IMG/VR virus record: IMGVR_UViG_3300036832_000918
Location: 1 to 41,558 of that record
Length of the DNA stretch: 41,558 nucleotides
Reading direction: 5' to 3' (one strand)
From: a virus
Under the pieces are notes generated by a model. That model searched no databases, had not been told where the DNA came from, and saw only the letters and a list, made by a program, of their open reading frames with translations. The position numbers and the translations under genes are program-made. This document shows positions 5,937 through 29,364 of the stretch, piece after piece; the stretch's first letter is position 1, and every line of letters begins with the position of its first letter.

Positions 5937-6174
5937 TGGTGCTGTTCCTTGCCTCTGTGAGGGCGATCCTGAGTTGTTTCAGATACTCGACGTTGTCATC
6001 CTGGAGATTTGGTATTGCCTCTAGTTTCTGAATCTCTTCTTCGAGATCACAGATATCATCCGAAAGGTCACCGAAGCAGCACTTGGTGCAGGCCCAGGTT
6101 TCCGTTCCCCATGGCCATCGCTCATGCAGCACGCGATATTTTGCACAACAGTCGCATTGTCCGAATATTATCAT
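5878..6174 (-). CDS. small zinc-ribbon-like protein
   Basis: 98 residues, [18 protein letters not shown] at the start, then WACTKCC, so two Cys pairs (CDCC and CTKC) spaced as in a zinc ribbon. Residues about 45-85 are an acidic coiled-coil-like helix ([18 protein letters not shown]). The start at 6174 is fixed by an excellent GGAGGT five to six bases upstream and by overlap with the previous stop (ATGA). Its 3' end overlaps the RecT start by 59 bases. Function is unknown; early-left position suggests takeover or recombination. Confidence 0.75.
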
Positions 6175-6356
6175 AGATACCTCCGTCCATTTTCTTCGCA
6201 TTGAATGTTGTAATCGAACTGTTCGTCCGTGATTGGGGCCGGCCGCAGGCGGCGGCGCAGCTCCCAGCGCTCGCGGGATTGCCGGCCGAGCGTCTTGGCG
6301 AATTCGATCAGCCAGTCGTCTTCCGGGAAGCGTCGGCGTGGCGTAGGGGCGAGCAT
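6171..6356 (-). CDS. small basic protein, unknown function
   Basis: 61 residues: MLAPTPRRRFPEDDWLIEFA, then an Arg-rich helix (RQSRERWELRRRLRP) and [20 protein letters not shown]. The start shares a base with the stop of the membrane protein before it (TGATG) and its stop overlaps the next ATG (ATGA), so it is coupled on both sides. I do not recognise the family. Confidence 0.65.
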   Translation of the reverse strand: MLAPTPRRRFPEDDWLIEFAKTLGRQSRERWELRRRLRPAPITDEQFDYNIQCEENGRRYL

Positions 6357-6466
6357 CACAGCACCAGCATGATGAAGGCGACGAAAGCCGCGATGCACGT
6401 CAGCTCGCCGATGACGATGAGGCCGATCATGGTGGCCTTGATGAGATCGTGGATCATGGCGTTCAT
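6356..6466 (-). CDS. 36-residue single-span membrane protein
   Basis: MNAMIHDLIKATMIGLIVIG followed by ELTCIAAFVAFIMLVL: nearly all of it is one long hydrophobic segment. Both ends overlap neighbouring genes (ATGA at the start, TGATG at the end), which supports translation despite its small size. It could be a superinfection-exclusion or membrane-targeting peptide, but there is no direct evidence. Confidence 0.55.
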   Translation of the reverse strand: MNAMIHDLIKATMIGLIVIGELTCIAAFVAFIMLVL

Positions 6467-6660
6467 TCCGAATTCGGCGTGGCCGATTCGCCATTGAGGA
6501 AATGCGATCCTCCATTGAGGAAATGCACGCGCCACAGGGCATCCATTTCGTCATGGAAATCGACGATTCCTTCAAATTCGCCGTCAGGCTTGAAAAAGCC
6601 GACGATGTAGACAAAGTGCTCGTCGGTCTTGTTTATTTTGGTAGTGCGATAGACCCACAT
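6463..6660 (-). CDS. small early protein with 7-residue tandem duplication
   Basis: 65 residues from ATG 6660, which has GGAGG at good spacing; an upstream in-frame start is less likely. The protein is MWVYRTTKINKTDEHFVYIV then GFFKPDGEFEGIVDFHDEMD, a compact beta-rich domain seen in small phage proteins, followed by the duplicated HFLNGGS-HFLNGES. The duplication comes from a 21-bp tandem repeat at 6491-6526. Its stop overlaps the next start. Function unknown. Confidence 0.65.
   Translation of the reverse strand: MWVYRTTKINKTDEHFVYIVGFFKPDGEFEGIVDFHDEMDALWRVHFLNGGSHFLNGESATPNSE
6491..6526. repeat. 21-bp tandem duplication inside a coding gene
   Basis: CCATTGAGGAAATGC occurs at 6491-6505 and again at 6512-6526, a 21-bp period that keeps the reading frame and duplicates HFLNG near the end of the 65-residue protein. 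It looks like a recent slippage event. Confidence 0.8.
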
Positions 6661-6661
6661 G

Positions 6662-6856
6662 TCAGACTTCCTCCATCCACCATGGTCGCTGGCGATCTCC
6701 GCCCCGGTTTGCCTGATGGATCGCATCGTTAACCACTTCGTCCTCCTCCATCGAAAGCATGAGACGACAGAAAGGATGATCGCGCTCGTGAGAGCGGAGC
6801 TTGTTGGCGTTCTTCAGTGAGCGGTCGGCTTTGTAAGCGGCTATGAGCCTGTTCAT
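6662..6856 (-). CDS. first gene of leftward early operon, unknown function
   Basis: 64 residues, MNRLIAAYKADRSLKNANKL then RSHERDHPFCRLMLSMEEDE. It is helical and charged, of unknown family. GGGAGACGG sits directly before the start. It is the first gene after promoter pL (6911-6882), so it should be made earliest when the repressor falls. Such first-left genes often encode anti-host or antitermination functions, but nothing here identifies one. Confidence 0.65.
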   Translation of the reverse strand: MNRLIAAYKADRSLKNANKLRSHERDHPFCRLMLSMEEDEVVNDAIHQANRGGDRQRPWWMEEV

Positions 6857-6881
6857 GTCCGTCTCCCGATCTGATGGGGAG

Positions 6882-6911
6882 ACTATATACAGATGTGGAT
6901 AGAGGCGTCAA
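6882..6911 (-). promoter_or_regulatory. pL: leftward early promoter pL with operator
   Basis: On the minus strand a TTGACG -35 (6911-6906) is followed by a good -10 (TATATA at 6889-6884, spacer 16, or TATAGT at 6887-6882, spacer 18). Between them lies operator-like ATACA-GATG-TGGAT (6887-6900), starting exactly 5 bases after the -35. The rightward promoter at 7298 has the same -35, the same 5-base gap and the same operator, so one repressor very probably controls both. Confidence 0.75.
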
Positions 6912-6957
6912 TCAGAAAAATACAAAAATGGATAAAATAAATTCGTTCCCGCTGCGT

Positions 6958-7242
6958 TCACCCTGCCTTTTTCTTGAGTCCGGCGCCGACAGCATTGAGG
7001 AGGGCGAGCAACTGATCCGGGTTTTGCCCCAATAGACCAATTACATACTCATGGGCCAGATGCGCGGTCCGCGGATCGGCGGCTGCATAGCGCAGAAGCT
7101 TGTCCCACGCCGCTTTGGGAATTTCATTAAGCCCGCTCTGCCACCTCGACACGGTCGCTTGCGATGTTCCGAGCGCCGCAGCCAGCTCTTTCTGGCCGAC
7201 CCCGGTGATGCGTGAGATTTCGGAGATTATATCTGTTGCCAT
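6958..7242 (-). CDS. cI: CI-like phage repressor (small HTH protein)
   Basis: 94 residues, MATDIISEISRITGVGQKEL then AAALGTSQATVSRWQSGLNE: a classic lambda-repressor/Cro type helix-turn-helix (GVGQKELAAALGTSQATVSR). The rest is helical (LLRYAAADPRT, LLALLNAVGAGLKKK) and may dimerise; there is no LexA-like protease domain, so induction would not be by RecA cleavage. It is transcribed away from cro with the operator region between, the usual lysogeny switch. The -10 (TATAGT, 7254-7249) puts the transcript start at or next to the ATG, so the message is probably leaderless, as lambda cI from PRM is. A perfect inverted repeat covers the start codon. Confidence 0.8.
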   Translation of the reverse strand: MATDIISEISRITGVGQKELAAALGTSQATVSRWQSGLNEIPKAAWDKLLRYAAADPRTAHLAHEYVIGLLGQNPDQLLALLNAVGAGLKKKAG

Positions 7243-7250
7243 GGGGCAAC
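7235..7250. promoter_or_regulatory. inverted repeat over the repressor start codon
   Basis: GTTGCC-ATGG-GGCAAC is a perfect 6-bp inverted repeat. The repressor start codon (7242-7240) lies in its centre and the repressor -10 box touches its right arm. It differs from the ATACA-N4-TGTAT operators, so it would be a site for another protein or an RNA hairpin at the very 5' end of the transcript. Confidence 0.45.
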
Positions 7251-7280
7251 TATAGCGTTGCGCTGAATACAGTGTCGTAT
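7249..7280 (-). promoter_or_regulatory. pRM: repressor promoter (pRM-like) with operator O1
   Basis: Minus-strand -10 TATAGT (7254-7249) with a weak -35 ACGACA (7278-7273, spacer 18). Operator-like ATACA-GTGT-CGTAT at 7267-7280 (4 of 5 arm matches) covers the -35. Occupancy there by Cro or repressor would shut the repressor gene. The weak -35 agrees with a maintenance promoter that needs activation. Confidence 0.5.
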
Positions 7281-7284
7281 ATGC

Positions 7285-7297
7285 GGGGGGGGGGGGG
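7285..7297 (+). repeat. run of 13 G between the two switch promoters
   Basis: Thirteen consecutive G lie between operator O1 and the -35 of the rightward promoter, ending directly at the TTGACG. A homopolymer of this length is far outside the local pattern. It can slip during replication, and its length would set the distance between operators. It is also the kind of run where sequencing is least accurate. Confidence 0.85.
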
Positions 7298-7325
7298 TTG
7301 ACGGTAGAATACAGATGTGTATACG
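7298..7325 (+). promoter_or_regulatory. pR: rightward early promoter pR with operator O2
   Basis: -35 TTGACG (7298-7303), 16-base spacer, -10 TATACG (7320-7325). A perfect inverted repeat ATACA-GATG-TGTAT (7309-7322) fills the space and overlaps the -10. Transcription would begin around 7331-7334, at the cro ATG, so cro may also be leaderless; no ribosome site is seen upstream of it. Confidence 0.7.
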
Positions 7326-7333
7326 GTTCACGC

Positions 7334-7555
7334 ATGGCGCGGCCGCTCTTCCACATCCGTAAGAAGGTCTTCGGCGTCACGCAGGCCGAGATGGCCCTGA
7401 TCGCCGGAGTGTCGCAGGCGACCATTTCCAGGTGGGAGGAGGGCAGGCAGTCTCCCGACCACGATGCGCTTGCGCGCATTCGCTCCCGCGCCACGAAGCG
7501 CGGCATCCCTTGGGATGATCGCTGGTTCTTCGAGGCCCCGGAGACGGCTGCATGA
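7334..7555 (+). CDS. cro: Cro-like repressor
   Basis: 73 residues from ATG 7334. MARPLFHIRKKVFGVTQAEM then ALIAGVSQATISRWEEGRQS is a helix-turn-helix of the same class as the facing repressor (SQATISRW against SQATVSRW), so the two may read the same operators. The TTG at 7298 in the same frame is the promoter -35 and not a likely start. The C-terminus (GIPWDDRWFFEAPETAA) is short. Opposite orientation to the repressor gene with operators between is the standard Cro arrangement. Confidence 0.8.
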   Translation: MARPLFHIRKKVFGVTQAEMALIAGVSQATISRWEEGRQSPDHDALARIRSRATKRGIPWDDRWFFEAPETAA

Positions 7556-7854
7556 GCCCCGGTCGAATACACGCGAAAGATGACACGCCCCGCGTGTGCG
7601 GGCGTGATGCACGCCAACTTCATGTGGGCTTCCCCGATAAATCACAAGTTGATCTCTTGGATTTGTACCGGCTGCCCGTCCAACATGCCGGTTGTGCGAA
7701 AACATGTCAATTTGACCCACAACCAACAGTAAGTTTCCGTGATGGGGCAATTGTGTTCCGCAATGGAACCCATTGTGAATCATTATGGGCATTGGGGCCT
7801 CCGTGGCTTTCTCGGCTGTCAATCCCCTCATTTAGGGGGAATATTGTCCGATGA
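7552..7854 (+). CDS. possible early-right protein, unknown
   Basis: 100 codons fit exactly between cro and the next gene with ATGA overlaps at both ends (7552 and 7851), the coupling pattern used all over this genome. The predicted protein (MSPGRIHAKDDTPRVCGRDA at the start) has no recognisable domain and a composition that does not look strongly coding. The same stretch holds several inverted repeats (7761-7775 and 7824-7838) and a GC-rich imperfect hairpin near 7581-7602. It may be a control region and not a gene. Confidence 0.35.
   Translation: MSPGRIHAKDDTPRVCGRDARQLHVGFPDKSQVDLLDLYRLPVQHAGCAKTCQFDPQPTVSFRDGAIVFRNGTHCESLWALGPPWLSRLSIPSFRGNIVR
7761..7775. promoter_or_regulatory. inverted repeat, possible protein-binding site
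   Basis: CAATGG-AAC-CCATTG is a perfect 6-bp inverted repeat about 75 bases before the next start, in a stretch that repeats related words (CAATTGTG, CAATGG, CATTGTG, CATTGGGG). It may be a binding site for an activator of the CII type. Confidence 0.35.
7824..7838 (+). promoter_or_regulatory. hairpin covering the ribosome site of the next gene
   Basis: CCCCT-CATTT-AGGGG is a perfect short inverted repeat whose right arm is also the only good ribosome-binding stretch (AGGGGGA) for the ATG at 7851. Pairing would hide the ribosome site, so translation of that gene may be controlled at this point. Confidence 0.4.
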
Positions 7855-8291
7855 AGGTACTATTGACAAATCCGTCGGGCGGACATCGGGGCGAGGAAAC
7901 CCCAGGCATAGTTGCTCATATACAACGCCTGCACGCCCTCATTCACGAATTGTTTCCGACCAAACCAGCTGCCCATTTAGCTGATCTGACGGGGCTTTCG
8001 ATCAGCGCATGGCACAAGTCGTTGCGCGATCGCCGTGATTTCTCCTCCGGTGCCCTGCTGTCTCTTTTCCGCAGTGCATACGGCCCGCGGTTCCTGCGCG
8101 CCTTCATAGGCGAAGACTATCGCGGAGATTGGTTCGTGGAGTTTCAAATTCTCATCCGGCGTGCAGAAATAGAGCAATGGGAACGCGATCTCAGGGGGAT
8201 CGATGAAGGCATTGCTCAAGCGAATTCTGCACGCCGTAACCAAGCTCATGGTGCGCCTCGACAAGTGGGTGCACGGGGCGTGCGGAAATGA
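7851..8291 (+). CDS. early-right regulator-like protein
   Basis: 146 residues. A helical block with a possible helix-turn-helix lies at about 30-60: HLADLTGLSISAWHKSLRDR then RDFSSGALLSLFRSAYGPRF, where the TGLSISAWHKSL segment resembles a recognition helix. FIGEDYRGDWFVEF and a long charged helix follow. The tail is basic and unstructured. Position after cro suggests a CII-like or early regulator. Family not recognised with confidence. Its stop overlaps the next start (ATGA). Confidence 0.7.
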   Translation: MKVLLTNPSGGHRGEETPGIVAHIQRLHALIHELFPTKPAAHLADLTGLSISAWHKSLRDRRDFSSGALLSLFRSAYGPRFLRAFIGEDYRGDWFVEFQILIRRAEIEQWERDLRGIDEGIAQANSARRNQAHGAPRQVGARGVRK

Positions 8292-21791: not shown

Positions 21792-22732
21792 TACGGGCCG
21801 CCATAAGCGCGCTTTTCGTGCTGGGGGATATTGGCATGCCCCTTGCTCAAAACAGCTTTCCCACGCCGGGCGGCGCGACCGTGCCGGGCTACGTCAATAT
21901 GTGCATTACCGGCAATCTGGCGGTGCCATGCAATCCCAGTGGCGGCGGTGGTGGCGGCCTGCTGCTCGACTCGGTCACCGCTACGGCAACAGCAGCTTAT
22001 TCGACCCGCAAGCTTCGGTCAGCATATGCGGGGGCTGCTATGCGAGTGATCAATACGACCACCACCTCGCAGGCCGATATTGGCTTCACCGGCAATGATC
22101 TGAACACTGCCGCGCTAGCGACTGCCTGCTCCGGCGCCACGTGCAGGATAGTCGAGTGGTACGACCAATCCGGGGCGGGGAATAATACTGGCTTGGACAG
22201 CACTACTGTTGCGGCGGTTGTCAATGCGGGGGTCAATTACACTCTCAACGGACACGTTGCGGTGCGAACTCTGGGAGCTGGGGCTGGGGATTGCCTGGGA
22301 GTCACCATGGCCATTGCTCCGCCGACTACCTTTGGGGTCGTGGCCAACATAACGAGCTACGTCACCAACTCCGCGCTCACGAGTGGCACCAGTGGCGGTT
22401 TCGAGATGACCATGGGGCCTACAGCCACGAGTTGGCAGCTTTATAATACTGGGACAGCATTGAATGGGGGAACGTACACCACTGGGACATCTTATGGGGT
22501 CATCGCGGTCGTTGATGGCGTCAACAGCACGCTGATCGCCAGCGGCGTTGTCAAGATTCCAACGGGAATGAGTCCTGGTACGGCCAGCAGCGCGAGTCAG
22601 CTTGTAGGCGGGGCCAACGGTCCTGCGTGCTTCGATGGCTACATGCCGGAATTCATCATTTTCAATTCGAACTTGAGCGGTGCTGATCGCTCGGCCATGG
22701 CTGCAAACTGGACGGCCTATTGGGGCACCTAG
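21785..22732 (+). CDS. secreted lectin-like (LamG/arabinofuranosidase-like) receptor-binding protein
   Basis: 315 residues from ATG 21785. Signal-like start (MLIRAAISALFVLGDIGMPL then AQ), one copy of the Cys module of the preceding gene (residues 25-49, FPTPGGATVPGYVNMC then ITGNLAVPC), a Gly6 hinge, then a domain like the concanavalin-A-type fold of alpha-L-arabinofuranosidase B: AYSTRKLRSAYAGAAMRVIN, DIGFTGNDLNTAALATACSG, CRIVEWYDQSGAGNNTG (the YDQSG signature). It ends in a strand-rich region (FDGYMPEFIIFNSNLSGADR). Probably binds host or environmental glycans. The signal peptide is odd for a virion protein. Confidence 0.75.
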   Translation: MLIRAAISALFVLGDIGMPLAQNSFPTPGGATVPGYVNMCITGNLAVPCNPSGGGGGGLLLDSVTATATAAYSTRKLRSAYAGAAMRVINTTTTSQADIGFTGNDLNTAALATACSGATCRIVEWYDQSGAGNNTGLDSTTVAAVVNAGVNYTLNGHVAVRTLGAGAGDCLGVTMAIAPPTTFGVVANITSYVTNSALTSGTSGGFEMTMGPTATSWQLYNTGTALNGGTYTTGTSYGVIAVVDGVNSTLIASGVVKIPTGMSPGTASSASQLVGGANGPACFDGYMPEFIIFNSNLSGADRSAMAANWTAYWGT

Positions 22733-25700
22733 TGACTTTTCCCGCCGATATTCGCGTCAATACTACATTTCCGTTTCCAGCCCTTGTGGAGGGCAACGGA
22801 CCGATTACGATCTCGAAACAGTCCGGCATCTGGACAGTCGGCTATGACGCAAGCCGGTTTCCAGCGACCAATGTGCCAGTAGGCTCGCTCCCAACCGACT
22901 ATACGCTCGTCTGGGATAGCGTAGCCAATAGGTACATCAATATTTCGCTCTCAAATCTTATTTCGTCTGGCGGCGGCCCGGCCGGTGCCACCGGCCCGAT
23001 AGGCCCGACCGGCCCGACTGGCCCGCCATCTGGTCCAACAGGCCCGACAGGACCGACAGGACCGGTAGGCGGCGTCAGCAGCGCTCCGGTATTTGCGACC
23101 GTGTCGGAAGCGCAGGGCGGCGCAATTCCTGCCAGCGCGACCAGTATCCAGGTACAAGGATATTATGCCCCTGGAGACAATGGCGGCGGTTTCTATCAAC
23201 GGGTTGCCAGCCTGCCGTCGGTATGGAAGAATGAAACCCTGAATGATAATGCCGTTCCTCCATGCATTGTCTCGGGCGGCGTTCCGATCATGGCGTCCGC
23301 CACGACAACACTTGGCTTTACACCGAATACAATGCTCCCGATTCCCGCGGGATGTCTTGTCTTCATATGTGCGAGAGTGGCCAGTGCCAGCTATCCATCG
23401 ACGATTACCGACAGTGCCGGCAACGTTTATAATATCATAGTGTCGTCGGTTGGTGGAGCAACCAACCATTTGAATGCCGCAGTTTATTACTGTGTCAGTT
23501 CGGTCTTTGCCCCGGTTGGGACGACGTTCGATATCGTCACTCCCCAGCCCAATGTTCAACTATTTGCGTGCTATCTGTCTGGGTTCCCTGGTGCAGTGGT
23601 GGATCAAACGGCCGTCGTGGTCCATGATACGGCGGCGCCCGTATCTATAACGACCGGGACGCTGACTGCCGCGCCCCAACTCGTTATCGGATGGGCCTCC
23701 ACTCTCAATGGTAATCCTTATTCCGTGCCCGCTGGCTGGGTCAGCCTGTTCCCTCCGTTGACATCCGTATATCCGTTGTGCGCCATAATAACGAATAGCA
23801 CGGCTCCGGTGACGTTTGCACCAACTGCTACGGGTGGTGACGACGTCAACACGGCCGTCGTCGTAACATTCAAGACGGCTCCTCGCACCGCTCTCGATCC
23901 GTCGTACTGGCAGCTTGTTCCCAGCTTTCCGCCACATACGGCGCAATTCGGAATAACACCGGGGCCGCACGACAATATGCTCTCGTTTCGCCAATTTACC
24001 AATTGGCTCGCATCCATTGCTCCACCGTCCGGCTCGAGCCTTGGCTTCTCTGGCGCCAGTCAGGCTGCAGGCACATGTACGATTACCATCGGCAGCCCCG
24101 CGGTGATCACGATCGGCACTCCGTACGCTCCGACAATTGCTTCGCACGGATTGCGCAATGGGTCGATGATCAGCTTCGAGACAACGGGGCATCTACCGAC
24201 GGGAATAGTCGCCGGCAAGAGGTATTTTGTCCAGTACGGCACCACCACGACCACGACGGTTCAGGTTTCCGATACATGTATTCTCAGCCCAGTTGTTGCC
24301 AACGGCGGAGTGCAGACGGCCGCCAAGGGCACGCCGATCGCCACATCCGGCACGCAATCCGGCACGCACTCCTACACGACCTATGGCGAGTCGTGGATGG
24401 ATTTCGTTCTCGATCCTGGAATGTATTTTGCGAGCATTAATCAGGCGCCAGGTCCGGGCGCGCCACTCAAGAAGTGGCGCTTGAACGGCTATGGCGCTCG
24501 GTTTCAGACCAACACCTTTTTCACGGGTACGCCATGGGTCGATATCAATGCCAACACGGGCGGCAGCCAGGTCGCATACTCGGCGCAGTTCCAAACCACG
24601 AACATGATCAATGGTCAGAATCAGAACTTTATCATACTGAATACCCCGGCCCAGGCGGTTAATTTCTATCCCGGCAGCTGGGTTGTCCTGATGTGCAACG
24701 AGATGCAGTCGAGCCAGACGGGCAACTGGAACCAGTATATATTCGAGTACTGCAAGGTCGTGCGGGTCAATGCTTCTACCGGAAGGATAGATTTTGGGGA
24801 TTATCTGCAATACAACTATCGGTCGACGTATCCGACGTTTGCCTCTCCGATCGTCGCCTTTAATGGGATCTGTGGTCCGGCCACCATCGTGCAGCTCAAT
24901 GATACGTTCGACCAGGAGATAGTGGTTCGTGGTGTCAATTTCTATGGGATCACCCAAGAGCAATGGCAATCGGTGCTGTCGTTCACGGCCGAGGACTGCG
25001 ATGTGTACGGGTGGGGCTTTAAGACTGGACCATTTCCCACGACCATGAGGAACTACACGTTCAAGAACTGCCGGATACATAATTCCGTTGCTGAAATTGA
25101 TAAGATGATAGATGTAATGGTGTTCGAGGATTGCGAGTTCGACCGCGGCTCGTATCTGCTGGTTCAGAGTGCTAGCGTCAATCGGATGGTGATCAAGGGC
25201 TGCAAGATGCAGAACGGGATGCAGGGCACGGCCAAGGATGTCTATATCGAAAATAGCGATATTGCCTTTGTGCTTCAGGTCGGCCCAGTGTTCGGGGTGA
25301 CCGAACGCATGACGGTTATCAATAGCCGAATTCAGCAGATCGCCAGTCAATTCCAGGAGTTCTCGATCCTTAAGATTCCGGACCCGTCATTTACGTTCTC
25401 CAATGGAACGCTGCAGTTCTTGGTAGGAGTTGCAGGTCCGTATGGAACGTGGAACGGGCCGAGCGCGCAGTCGGTCTGCCCGACGCTGTGGGCGCAGGTG
25501 GGGGCCAAGATAGCGATTTGCGCCTATCAGATAAGCGCAACTGGCATCCCCGCAGGTGGCCTACACCCTGGTGAGACCGTGGGGATGATGCTGGTGTTCA
25601 CAGTTCTCGATGTCTATCACGATGGCACGAGTGGAAATTATTGTGTCGATACCACGCTGTCAGCGATGCCCACGACCAACGTCACGGTGACGGGCACGGT

Positions 25701-26490
25701 AGCGGGAACGACCCTCACCGTTACGGCAATCACGCCATCGGATGCTTGTCTTTTGACGGGCATGAATATTTCTGGTGGCGGGCTGCCAGCCGGGACATCC
25801 ATCACACGGGACCGCGGCATTCCGGGGAGCCAAATAGGGGCTTATACACTCAACAACTCCGCGACGATCTCAACGTCGACAAATTTCACCGCCAGCGTGC
25901 CGATGAATTTTTTGCCACACCCATGTCCACGGGTGAATTTTATCAACTGTACGGGCGGACGAGTGGTATCGGACATGTCGGGGGCGCCGCCAGACAGCCC
26001 GTTGTGGAGCTATTTCCGTCGGGCATGGGCCGGCGTTACGTTCAATATTGGGTTCGCGGCGGAATACGTCCAACTTGCGGGCAACTTGGTATCGTGGACG
26101 GTCAATGTTCAAAAGGCCTATACGGGAGCGACCTCGCCGGCCAATTGCGTCATAAGCATATTCGGATACAAGAACGTAGGCGGGAATCTATACCCAACGT
26201 TCGTTACCCAGACCATCAATCTGGCGGTAGCCGGGGTTCGCAGTTTCACCGCGACCGGAACGTCGACACCGCTGTCAGGCGATACGCTCGTTGCGGTTCC
26301 GTTTTGGTTGACCGGCTCACATCAGATTAGCATGCCAGCATCGCCGGCCGGCACATTGGATAAGATGCCCATAGTCGTCATGCAGGGACAGACGGATATT
26401 GGAAGCGAGACGGCTTCAATGACTCTGAATGGGACCAAATTTGGCGCTGACTTGGTGGCCGATACCGCTACTGGCATGGTCATGGGGTGA
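22732..26490 (+). CDS. large tail spike with collagen-like stalk and beta-helix
   Basis: 1252 residues from GTG 22732, overlapping the previous TAG. Residues 1-80 (ADIRVNTTFPFPALVEGNGP, ISKQSGIWTVGYD, PTDYTLVWDSVANRYINISL) are a virion-anchoring domain shared with the fibre at 40331. A collagen-like Gly-Pro-Thr stretch follows (GATGPIGPTGPTGPPSGPTG). Beyond a small folded domain (APGDNGGGFYQRV) and inserted beta domains, the part from about residue 540 to 880 reads as a right-handed beta-helix (MIKGCKMQNGMQ-like turns, DVYIENSDIAFVL, MTVINSRIQQI). It has no signal peptide. It is the largest protein of the genome and the likely main receptor or polysaccharide-binding spike; enzymatic activity is not shown. 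Confidence 0.85.
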   Translation: MTFPADIRVNTTFPFPALVEGNGPITISKQSGIWTVGYDASRFPATNVPVGSLPTDYTLVWDSVANRYINISLSNLISSGGGPAGATGPIGPTGPTGPPSGPTGPTGPTGPVGGVSSAPVFATVSEAQGGAIPASATSIQVQGYYAPGDNGGGFYQRVASLPSVWKNETLNDNAVPPCIVSGGVPIMASATTTLGFTPNTMLPIPAGCLVFICARVASASYPSTITDSAGNVYNIIVSSVGGATNHLNAAVYYCVSSVFAPVGTTFDIVTPQPNVQLFACYLSGFPGAVVDQTAVVVHDTAAPVSITTGTLTAAPQLVIGWASTLNGNPYSVPAGWVSLFPPLTSVYPLCAIITNSTAPVTFAPTATGGDDVNTAVVVTFKTAPRTALDPSYWQLVPSFPPHTAQFGITPGPHDNMLSFRQFTNWLASIAPPSGSSLGFSGASQAAGTCTITIGSPAVITIGTPYAPTIASHGLRNGSMISFETTGHLPTGIVAGKRYFVQYGTTTTTTVQVSDTCILSPVVANGGVQTAAKGTPIATSGTQSGTHSYTTYGESWMDFVLDPGMYFASINQAPGPGAPLKKWRLNGYGARFQTNTFFTGTPWVDINANTGGSQVAYSAQFQTTNMINGQNQNFIILNTPAQAVNFYPGSWVVLMCNEMQSSQTGNWNQYIFEYCKVVRVNASTGRIDFGDYLQYNYRSTYPTFASPIVAFNGICGPATIVQLNDTFDQEIVVRGVNFYGITQEQWQSVLSFTAEDCDVYGWGFKTGPFPTTMRNYTFKNCRIHNSVAEIDKMIDVMVFEDCEFDRGSYLLVQSASVNRMVIKGCKMQNGMQGTAKDVYIENSDIAFVLQVGPVFGVTERMTVINSRIQQIASQFQEFSILKIPDPSFTFSNGTLQFLVGVAGPYGTWNGPSAQSVCPTLWAQVGAKIAICAYQISATGIPAGGLHPGETVGMMLVFTVLDVYHDGTSGNYCVDTTLSAMPTTNVTVTGTVAGTTLTVTAITPSDACLLTGMNISGGGLPAGTSITRDRGIPGSQIGAYTLNNSATISTSTNFTASVPMNFLPHPCPRVNFINCTGGRVVSDMSGAPPDSPLWSYFRRAWAGVTFNIGFAAEYVQLAGNLVSWTVNVQKAYTGATSPANCVISIFGYKNVGGNLYPTFVTQTINLAVAGVRSFTATGTSTPLSGDTLVAVPFWLTGSHQISMPASPAGTLDKMPIVVMQGQTDIGSETASMTLNGTKFGADLVADTATGMVMG

Positions 26491-27911: not shown

Positions 27912-27960
27912 CGCTTGACGCCGCTAACAGTGCTGGGGCCATACCCGAAGGGGAATGGCC

Positions 27961-28794
27961 ATGGCCATTACGACTGTTCAAAGTAACAACAAACTAATCG
28001 TCTTCATCAAGGAGATCACGCGCGAGTATATCCGCCAAAACCTGTTCTCGCCATATATCGGGGATTCGATGACTGCGATTATTCGCGTCATCAATAACTT
28101 GAAAAATGGCGGCGAGCAGATCAACATCCCGCTGATCGCCCGCCTCAAGAACAACCCCGTCGCCACCGGCACCCTCGTCGGAAACGAGGAGAATATCGAC
28201 AACTACGGCGACAGGGCATGGATCGATTGGGCGCGTAATGCGACTAAAGTCCCGCGGTCGGAAGAGCAGAAGTCGAGTATAGACCTGTTCGCTCAGGCAA
28301 GACCGTTATTGGAAGATTGGGGCAAAGAGCTGCAGCGCGACGAAATAGTGGATGCGTTTTTCGCCGTTCCGCTCGCCTCGACCGCACCGGCGGGCCTCGG
28401 CTCGGCCGGCGGCCAGCGCGTCAATGGCGCGCTGTTCGATCAATCCACGGTAGCCCAGCGCAATACCTGGGTGACCGACAACGGCGATCGGGTGCTGTTC
28501 GGCGGCAGCATCGGAAACTACTCGACGACGTGGGCAACCGCTGCCGGCGCCGTCACCTCGGCGATGACGCTGTCAGCCGCATCGTTGTCGAAGATGAAGC
28601 GGCTGGCCAAGAAGGCCAATCCGCGCATCAGGCCGTACAAGCTGAAAAATGGCAGAGAGTATTTCGTGCTGTTCGCGGGATCAAACTGTTTCCGCGATCT
28701 GCAGAACGACACCACGATCATCACCGCGAACACCATGGCGCGCCCGCGCGAGGGCGCTGGTCTGGACGAAAATCCGTTGTTCCAAGATGGGGAT
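27961..28794 (+). CDS. major capsid protein, exon 1 (N4-gp56-like)
   Basis: First 278 residues of a coat protein of about 382 residues. The start at ATG 27961 is favoured by AAGGGG seven bases upstream; ATG 27955 would place it too close. IGDSMTAIIRVINNLKNGGE, QINIPLIARLKNNPVATGTL, VGNEENIDNYGDRAWIDWAR and ARPLLEDWGKELQRDEIVDA match the N4-gp56/DUF4043 coat family. The frame then runs into an early stop at 28816 inside an intervening sequence. Joining 28794 to 29050 restores the reading frame as FQDGD-LIYNGIII. The early stop is therefore not a true end. Confidence 0.88.
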
Positions 28795-29049
28795 TACACG
28801 GTCCCTCTCGCCGCCTGAAATGGGGCGAGCAGCAAATCGCGTGAATTCGGGGAACGTCTCTCGCAGATAATCCCGAGCCAAGCCGCATATGTAAGGCCAA
28901 TGCCCCAGGGATGCGGAAGGTGTAACGACTAGGCGGTGACGAAAGAATACTCCGCCCACGAGCGCGCGACGCGAAAGCGATGATATAGTCTGAGCTGCAT
29001 GGCGACATGCAGAAGTATCGGATAAAGAGCCGATACGATAACAAATCTG
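28795..29049 (+). ncRNA. group I self-splicing intron in the coat gene
   Basis: 255 nt. P1: exon GGGGAT (28789-28794) pairs with guide GTCCCT (28801-28806), giving the required U-G pair at the splice site. P2: CTCGCC/GGCGAG (28807-28812, 28824-28829). P4: TCGGG/CCCGA (28847-28851, 28872-28876) within AATCCCGAGCCAAGCC, a hallmark core word. Core GCGGAAGGTGTAACGACTA (28913-28931). P7: GACTA/TAGTC (28927-28931, 28986-28990). P8: GGCGG/CCGCC. P9: CTGCATG-GCGA-CATGCAG (28995-29012), GNRA loop. P9.x: GTATCGG/CCGATAC (29015-29036). It ends in G (29049). The core resembles the Anabaena tRNA-Leu intron (subgroup IC3-like). No ORF inside. Confidence 0.93.
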
Positions 29050-29364
29050 CTCATCTACAACGGCATCATCATCCGGGAAATCCCGGAAATCGACATCCGT
29101 ATCCCGACTACCTATGCCACGGCCGGTTCCGGCGGAACCGTCGCGATCGCCCCGGTGTTCCTGTGCGGGCAGTCCGCCATCGCTTGGTGCTGGGGCCGCA
29201 TGCCTATCCCCACGTTCCTGAAAGAAGACGATTATCAATTCTACCGGGGCGTCGGCATCATGATGGCGTATGGCATGAAGAAGATCGCGAAACTCAACCC
29301 GACGGGGGCCTATAAAGAATGGGGGGTGTTTACGGGATACTTTGCGTCGGCGCCGGACGCTTAA
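29050..29364 (+). CDS. major capsid protein, exon 2
   Basis: Last 104 residues of the coat protein: LIYNGIIIREIPEIDIRIPT, VAIAPVFLCGQSAIAWCWGR, DDYQFYRGVGIMMAYGMKKI and the end GYFASAPDA. The frame is open through 29050 with no ribosome site or start codon near the exon edge, so it depends on splicing. Conserved N4-gp56 C-terminal features (IYNGIIIRE, FLCGQSAIAW) lie here, so an unspliced product would lack part of the coat fold. Confidence 0.88.
   Translation, partial: LIYNGIIIREIPEIDIRIPTTYATAGSGGTVAIAPVFLCGQSAIAWCWGRMPIPTFLKEDDYQFYRGVGIMMAYGMKKIAKLNPTGAYKEWGVFTGYFASAPDA

Follow-up and report, generated by a model that had tools for sequence, protein, structure and literature searches.

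A 255-nucleotide group I intron without an endonuclease frame in the major capsid gene of a tailed phage

The interrupted capsid gene and its intron

The major capsid gene on a viral DNA of 41,558 bases from IMG/VR (the whole stretch analyzed, hereafter the window) is almost certainly interrupted by a complete group I intron of 255 nt at positions 28795–29049, across which the two capsid exons are predicted to be spliced. The intron combines a score above the cut-off of the Rfam model RF00028, a P3–P9 fold with compensatory changes, a U-G pair at the 5′ splice site, a terminal G and empty sites in homologous genes. It has no endonuclease of its own and in that respect does not qualify as a homing intron. 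All exon and intron features of the window given below lie on the plus strand.

A scan of the window proteins identified genes for an anti-repressor and a RecT-like protein alongside those for integrase, terminase, portal, tail, and endolysin functions. By this gene content, the uncultured source virus is a temperate tailed phage. A search of a genome collection for close prophages returned two distant relatives (61–63%), one in Bradyrhizobium sp. and one in an uncultured Rhizobiales, which may be taken as a hint at the host at most. The window also contains, at 22720–26490, a 1256-residue frame with a TTG start, whose first 13 bases also belong to the frame before it and which shows only a weak tail-fiber match.

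The coat frame opens at the ATG at 27955 and ends after 287 residues at an in-frame stop within the intron (28816–28818), its final seven residues being read from intron sequence. The C-terminal part of the coat is picked up again in 29050–29364. Joining position 28794 to position 29050 keeps the frame and yields a predicted protein of 384 residues. Exon 1 (27955–28794) encodes residues 1–280, matches positions 1–267 of the phrog_334 profile on its own and is 86% identical at the amino acid level to exon 1 of L072, the relative with an intron at the same site. Exon 2 (29050–29364) encodes residues 281–384 and the stop codon, and the downstream reading frame matches phrog_334 positions 312–376, a complementary part of the same family. 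The joined protein aligned in a single stretch both with phrog_334 (residues 3–377 on profile positions 1–376, E = 5e-64) and with PF13252 (residues 7–364, E = 1.3e-38). The original prediction of a major capsid gene with an in-frame splice product was thus upheld, as one major-head-protein family is matched by each exon and, over its whole length, by the joined protein. Its assignment of the coat to the N4-gp56 type was not: the score for TIGR04387 was 31.4 bits, below the curated cut-off of 60. The protein belongs to the PF13252/phrog_334 family and bears only a weak resemblance to TIGR04387. Protein matches in known phages reached 26–38% only, for example in the Pseudanabaena phages Pam1, Pam5, and Pan3, and a search of known-phage DNA gave no homologues of the coat gene beyond short matches to the intron core.

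The RF00028 match covered 28785–29012 (model positions 1–253, E = 1.8e-11) with 55.2 bits against a curated cut-off of 50, a modest margin above the gathering cut-off. It was the sole Rfam match in the window, and no riboswitch overlapping the intron was found. As read from the sequence, the base before the intron is U and the last intron base is G29049; the same bases occupy these positions in L072 and L064, two relatives with introns. The longest sense-strand frame within the intron encodes 37 residues and all sense frames contain stops, in agreement with the claim that no endonuclease is carried. No homing endonuclease was found elsewhere in the phage among the window proteins scanned, a set that leaves out some small reading frames.

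Viral contigs of IMG/VR were scanned with the joined protein, which gave 127 relatives, of which 80 were kept. In about 78 of the 80, the sequence runs through the junction without insertion, reading F(Q/V)DGD and then LxY or a slight variant of it. L072 carries an intron at the identical site (83% identity over 244 nt), and L064 a related intron at another site, between residues 340 and 341; both pass RF00028. Because of the intronless relatives and the intron at the same site in L072, the predicted boundaries are right to the base. In a tree of the capsid proteins with moderate branch support, the window and L072 were not sisters, and the intronless L003, L002, and L004/L005/L016 lay nearer. 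Intron presence is sporadic, a pattern that would mean transfer or repeated loss. In a comparison for co-conversion of the flanks, a sign of homing, exon identity to L072 beside the intron was not clearly raised; owing to length differences, the ungapped comparison fails beyond roughly the first 90 nt of exon 2.

Intron fold and covariation

Helices P3–P9 were placed on the window sequence with the RF00028 alignment as guide, and pairs were counted over 18 related introns (alignment A2). P1 (28789–28806) is formed by the exon end GGGGAU (28789–28794) and the internal guide GUCCCU (28801–28806), with the wobble pair U28794-G28801 at the 5′ splice site; it was read from the sequence, forms a hairpin when the fold is predicted and recurs in L072 and L064. 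The domain from P3 to P3′ (28837–28969), which includes P4, P5, P6, the 5′ strand of P7 and a P7.1 hairpin (GGCGG/CCGCC), was supported by the pair counts and by the P7.1 strands of the 18 introns. P8 and the 3′ strand of P7 (UAGUC) follow at 28970–28990, as indicated by the RF00028 alignment and the pair counts. The P9 hairpin (28995–29012; CUGCAUG-GCGA-CAUGCAG, with a GNRA loop) was placed by the same alignment and showed two-sided compensatory change in six of its seven pairs. Downstream of P9 and ahead of the 3′ splice site, the predicted fold has a second, P9.1-like hairpin (29015–29036; GUAUCGG/CCGAUAC), which is matched by a hairpin in relatives. Pairing of P10 with the 3′ exon was weak by eye.

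Standard pairs filled 98.0% of the cells in the 18 introns, a percentage inflated, although hardly to this value, by drawing the structure from one of the 18 sequences. Two-sided changes were present in 22 of the 39 pairs. The covariation score was 0.477, compared with 0.147 for shuffled alignments and 0.04–0.11 (maximum 0.108) for structures slid along the alignment. P7 was invariant across the aligned introns and is therefore uninformative for covariation. The 2-nt gap of P7.1 was misplaced by MAFFT, and this hairpin was therefore compared sequence by sequence and excluded from the pair count. Its strands showed matched substitutions (GGCGG/CCGCC, GGTCC/GGACC, GATGG/CCATC, GAGAG/CTCTC), one-sided changes were almost always answered on the other strand, and fewer pairs were seen only in L121 and L185 of the 18 introns. 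Because the folding energy of the window intron gave a weak signal (z = −2.0), covariation was used as the proof of the fold. Together with the RF00028 search, it bears out the prediction of a group I intron at this place.

Splicing and alternative readings

In the proposed mechanism, the internal guide in the late transcript would pair with the exon end GGGGAU, and a guanosine bound in P7 would attack after U28794. The freed 3′ end of the exon would then attack after the terminal G29049, and the ligated mRNA would be translated into the coat protein of 384 residues, while unspliced RNA would give a truncated coat of 287 residues at most. The intron itself would be a small parasite without an endonuclease. 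We propose that adequate splicing lets it persist and that its lineage has spread sporadically among phage capsid genes.

The original prediction saw in the intron a possible control point for the coat. If splicing followed the state of the cell or the stage of infection, it would set coat production, and the frame does stop inside the intron, so that coat output formally depends on splicing. However, the gene is intronless in 78 of the 80 close relatives retrieved, so that nearly all of them make the same coat without the intron, no riboswitch or other Rfam element lies over the intron, and splicing of the comparable capsid intron in the mycobacteriophage LittleE is presumed to be extremely efficient (PMC3706429). 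We therefore regard regulation by the intron as unsupported and highly improbable. Still less probable is an inactive intron, with a gene that is broken or whose 287-residue product serves as the coat. A contig of an uncultured virus might indeed hold a non-splicing allele, but none of the core helices is broken, the terminal G and the U-G pair of the 5′ splice site are in place, the fold is held by compensatory change and exon 2 is still an intact in-frame capsid segment. Insertion of another kind (an intein, a bypassed gap or a frameshifted duplicate) would account for the interrupted frame and nothing more, and can be practically dismissed, as the RF00028 match and the covariation mark a ribozyme and the stops in all sense frames exclude an intein.

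Relation to known introns

A P7.1 hairpin is absent from IC3 introns, which are located in the anticodon loops of tRNA genes. The window intron had been likened to one such IC3 intron, that of Anabaena tRNA-Leu; both are small group I ribozymes, a likeness judged by architecture and not by sequence. The comparison did not hold, as the window intron has a hairpin in the P7.1 position, with P7 (5′ strand) before it and P3′ after it, which we take to mark subgroup IA, and its relatives in a BLAST search were phage records. That search returned short matches covering parts of the intron from 405 phage records, T4-like genomes being frequent among them; a search of plasmids gave only one 32-nt match to the core. 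On account of this hairpin, and of a 3′ core resembling that of many phage introns, we assign the window intron to the phage subgroup IA type. Core words and the P7–P3′ hairpin are common to the window intron and the phage IA introns of T4 td and nrdB and of Bastillevirinae (PMC11878797). In Bastillevirinae, such introns are found in four gene families, among them DNA polymerase, ribonucleotide reductase, and terminase, and the majority carry a homing nuclease; the main text of that report makes no mention of capsid genes (PMC11878797).

The intron type is already known, and capsid precedents exist in phages LittleE and Tuc2009 (PMC3706429). The major capsid gene of LittleE has a probable group I intron, and both RT-PCR and protein sequencing demonstrated that it is spliced (PMC3706429). 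Like the window intron, it lies in a phage major capsid gene with intronless relatives, follows a U and ends in G. In contrast to the 255-nt window intron, which has no reading frame and interrupts a PF13252 coat, it measures about 820 bp, contains a LAGLIDADG-like reading frame on the reverse strand and interrupts an HK97-type coat (PMC3706429). Its sister, the BAKA/Optimus tail intron, is nearer to the window intron in size with 265 bp (PMC3706429). The capsid gene of the lactococcal phage Tuc2009 also carries a group I intron (as cited in PMC3706429), the shared feature being an intron of this group within a structural gene of a phage.

The intron lineage in phage capsid genes

Relatives of the intron were sought in viral contigs by intron words alone, with no gene as reference, which gave 85 stretches; a second word pattern gave at least 119. 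From these searches and the loci found earlier, a tree of 113 distinct intron cores was built. Host genes were labeled by PHROG scans of representative exons and extended by tblastn, and the label phrog_1357 of L228_395 was assigned by hand from exon order. Host genes in the set include DNA polymerase, portal, tail sheath, tape measure, helicase, and ribonucleotide reductase. The clade of the window holds 27 introns (support 88), and at least 24 of these lie in major capsid genes (phrog_334, phrog_9953, phrog_1357) at many different sites; of the remaining three, two are in a gene of phrog_644, a family without assigned function, and the third has no label. Across the 74 labeled introns, the capsid label required nine changes on the tree compared with a shuffled mean of 25 and a minimum of 19, a result to which near-copies contribute and which shows clustering rather than a count of independent insertions, with 39 introns outside the labeled set. 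BLAST among the capsids of phrog_334, phrog_9953, and phrog_1357 found no significant similarity. The proteins of phrog_334 and phrog_1357 both touch TIGR04387 below its cut-off and may therefore be remote kin.

The capsid bias of the wider lineage was unexpected and is worth following. A small, mostly endonuclease-free lineage recurs in capsid genes, at times with two or more introns per gene, and offers a natural system for the spread of introns without an endonuclease and for their tolerance by a very heavily expressed phage gene. Since annotation pipelines would call such a coat truncated, phage taxonomy based on capsids requires that exons be joined across introns.

With regard to the route of spread, the start of the guide after GGAT is TACACGGTCCC in both the window and L064, and CAATCGGTCCC in both L072 and L228, with differing sites within each pair. 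The sites of L064 and L228 share GGAT/GATTA(T/C) and lie in different capsid families. The recurring guide and site words would fit guide-directed insertion. They are possibly instead the trace of a lost endonuclease, or chance. As a tentative account, for which we would not claim even odds, the lineage may prefer phage major capsid genes and may have jumped from one capsid family to another (phrog_334, phrog_9953, phrog_1357) and to sites that are not homologous. In this account, spread would most likely proceed by reverse splicing of intron RNA at short guide-matched sites such as GGAT, favored by abundant late capsid mRNA, and not by endonuclease homing.

Several further loci were noted. 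A related intron clade (L085, L089, L109, and about 10 further loci) lies at the start of a large gene of 500–700 residues, for which the representatives scanned gave no PHROG or Pfam match. The N4-gp56-like capsid gene of L228 (5507–8014, minus strand) contains three RF00028 matches (7585–7864, 6248–6507, and 5959–6175) and has three, perhaps four introns, with one very short intervening exon; a LAGLIDADG-like reading frame (6804–7352) lies between exon pieces. The phrog_9953 capsid genes of L105 (6576–7466, minus strand), L121, L104, and L112 have two related intron cores each, the second of which lies just upstream in L104 and L112, and an upstream reading frame in L104 resembles a GIY-YIG endonuclease by eye. 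Distant PF13252-type capsid genes adjoin intron cores in L133 and in L167 (MW202512.1, phage ctDrO704; 2460–3903). The reading frame near the core is HNH-like in L133 and an "icea protein" in L167, and the annotated capsid of MW202512.1 may miss its first exon.
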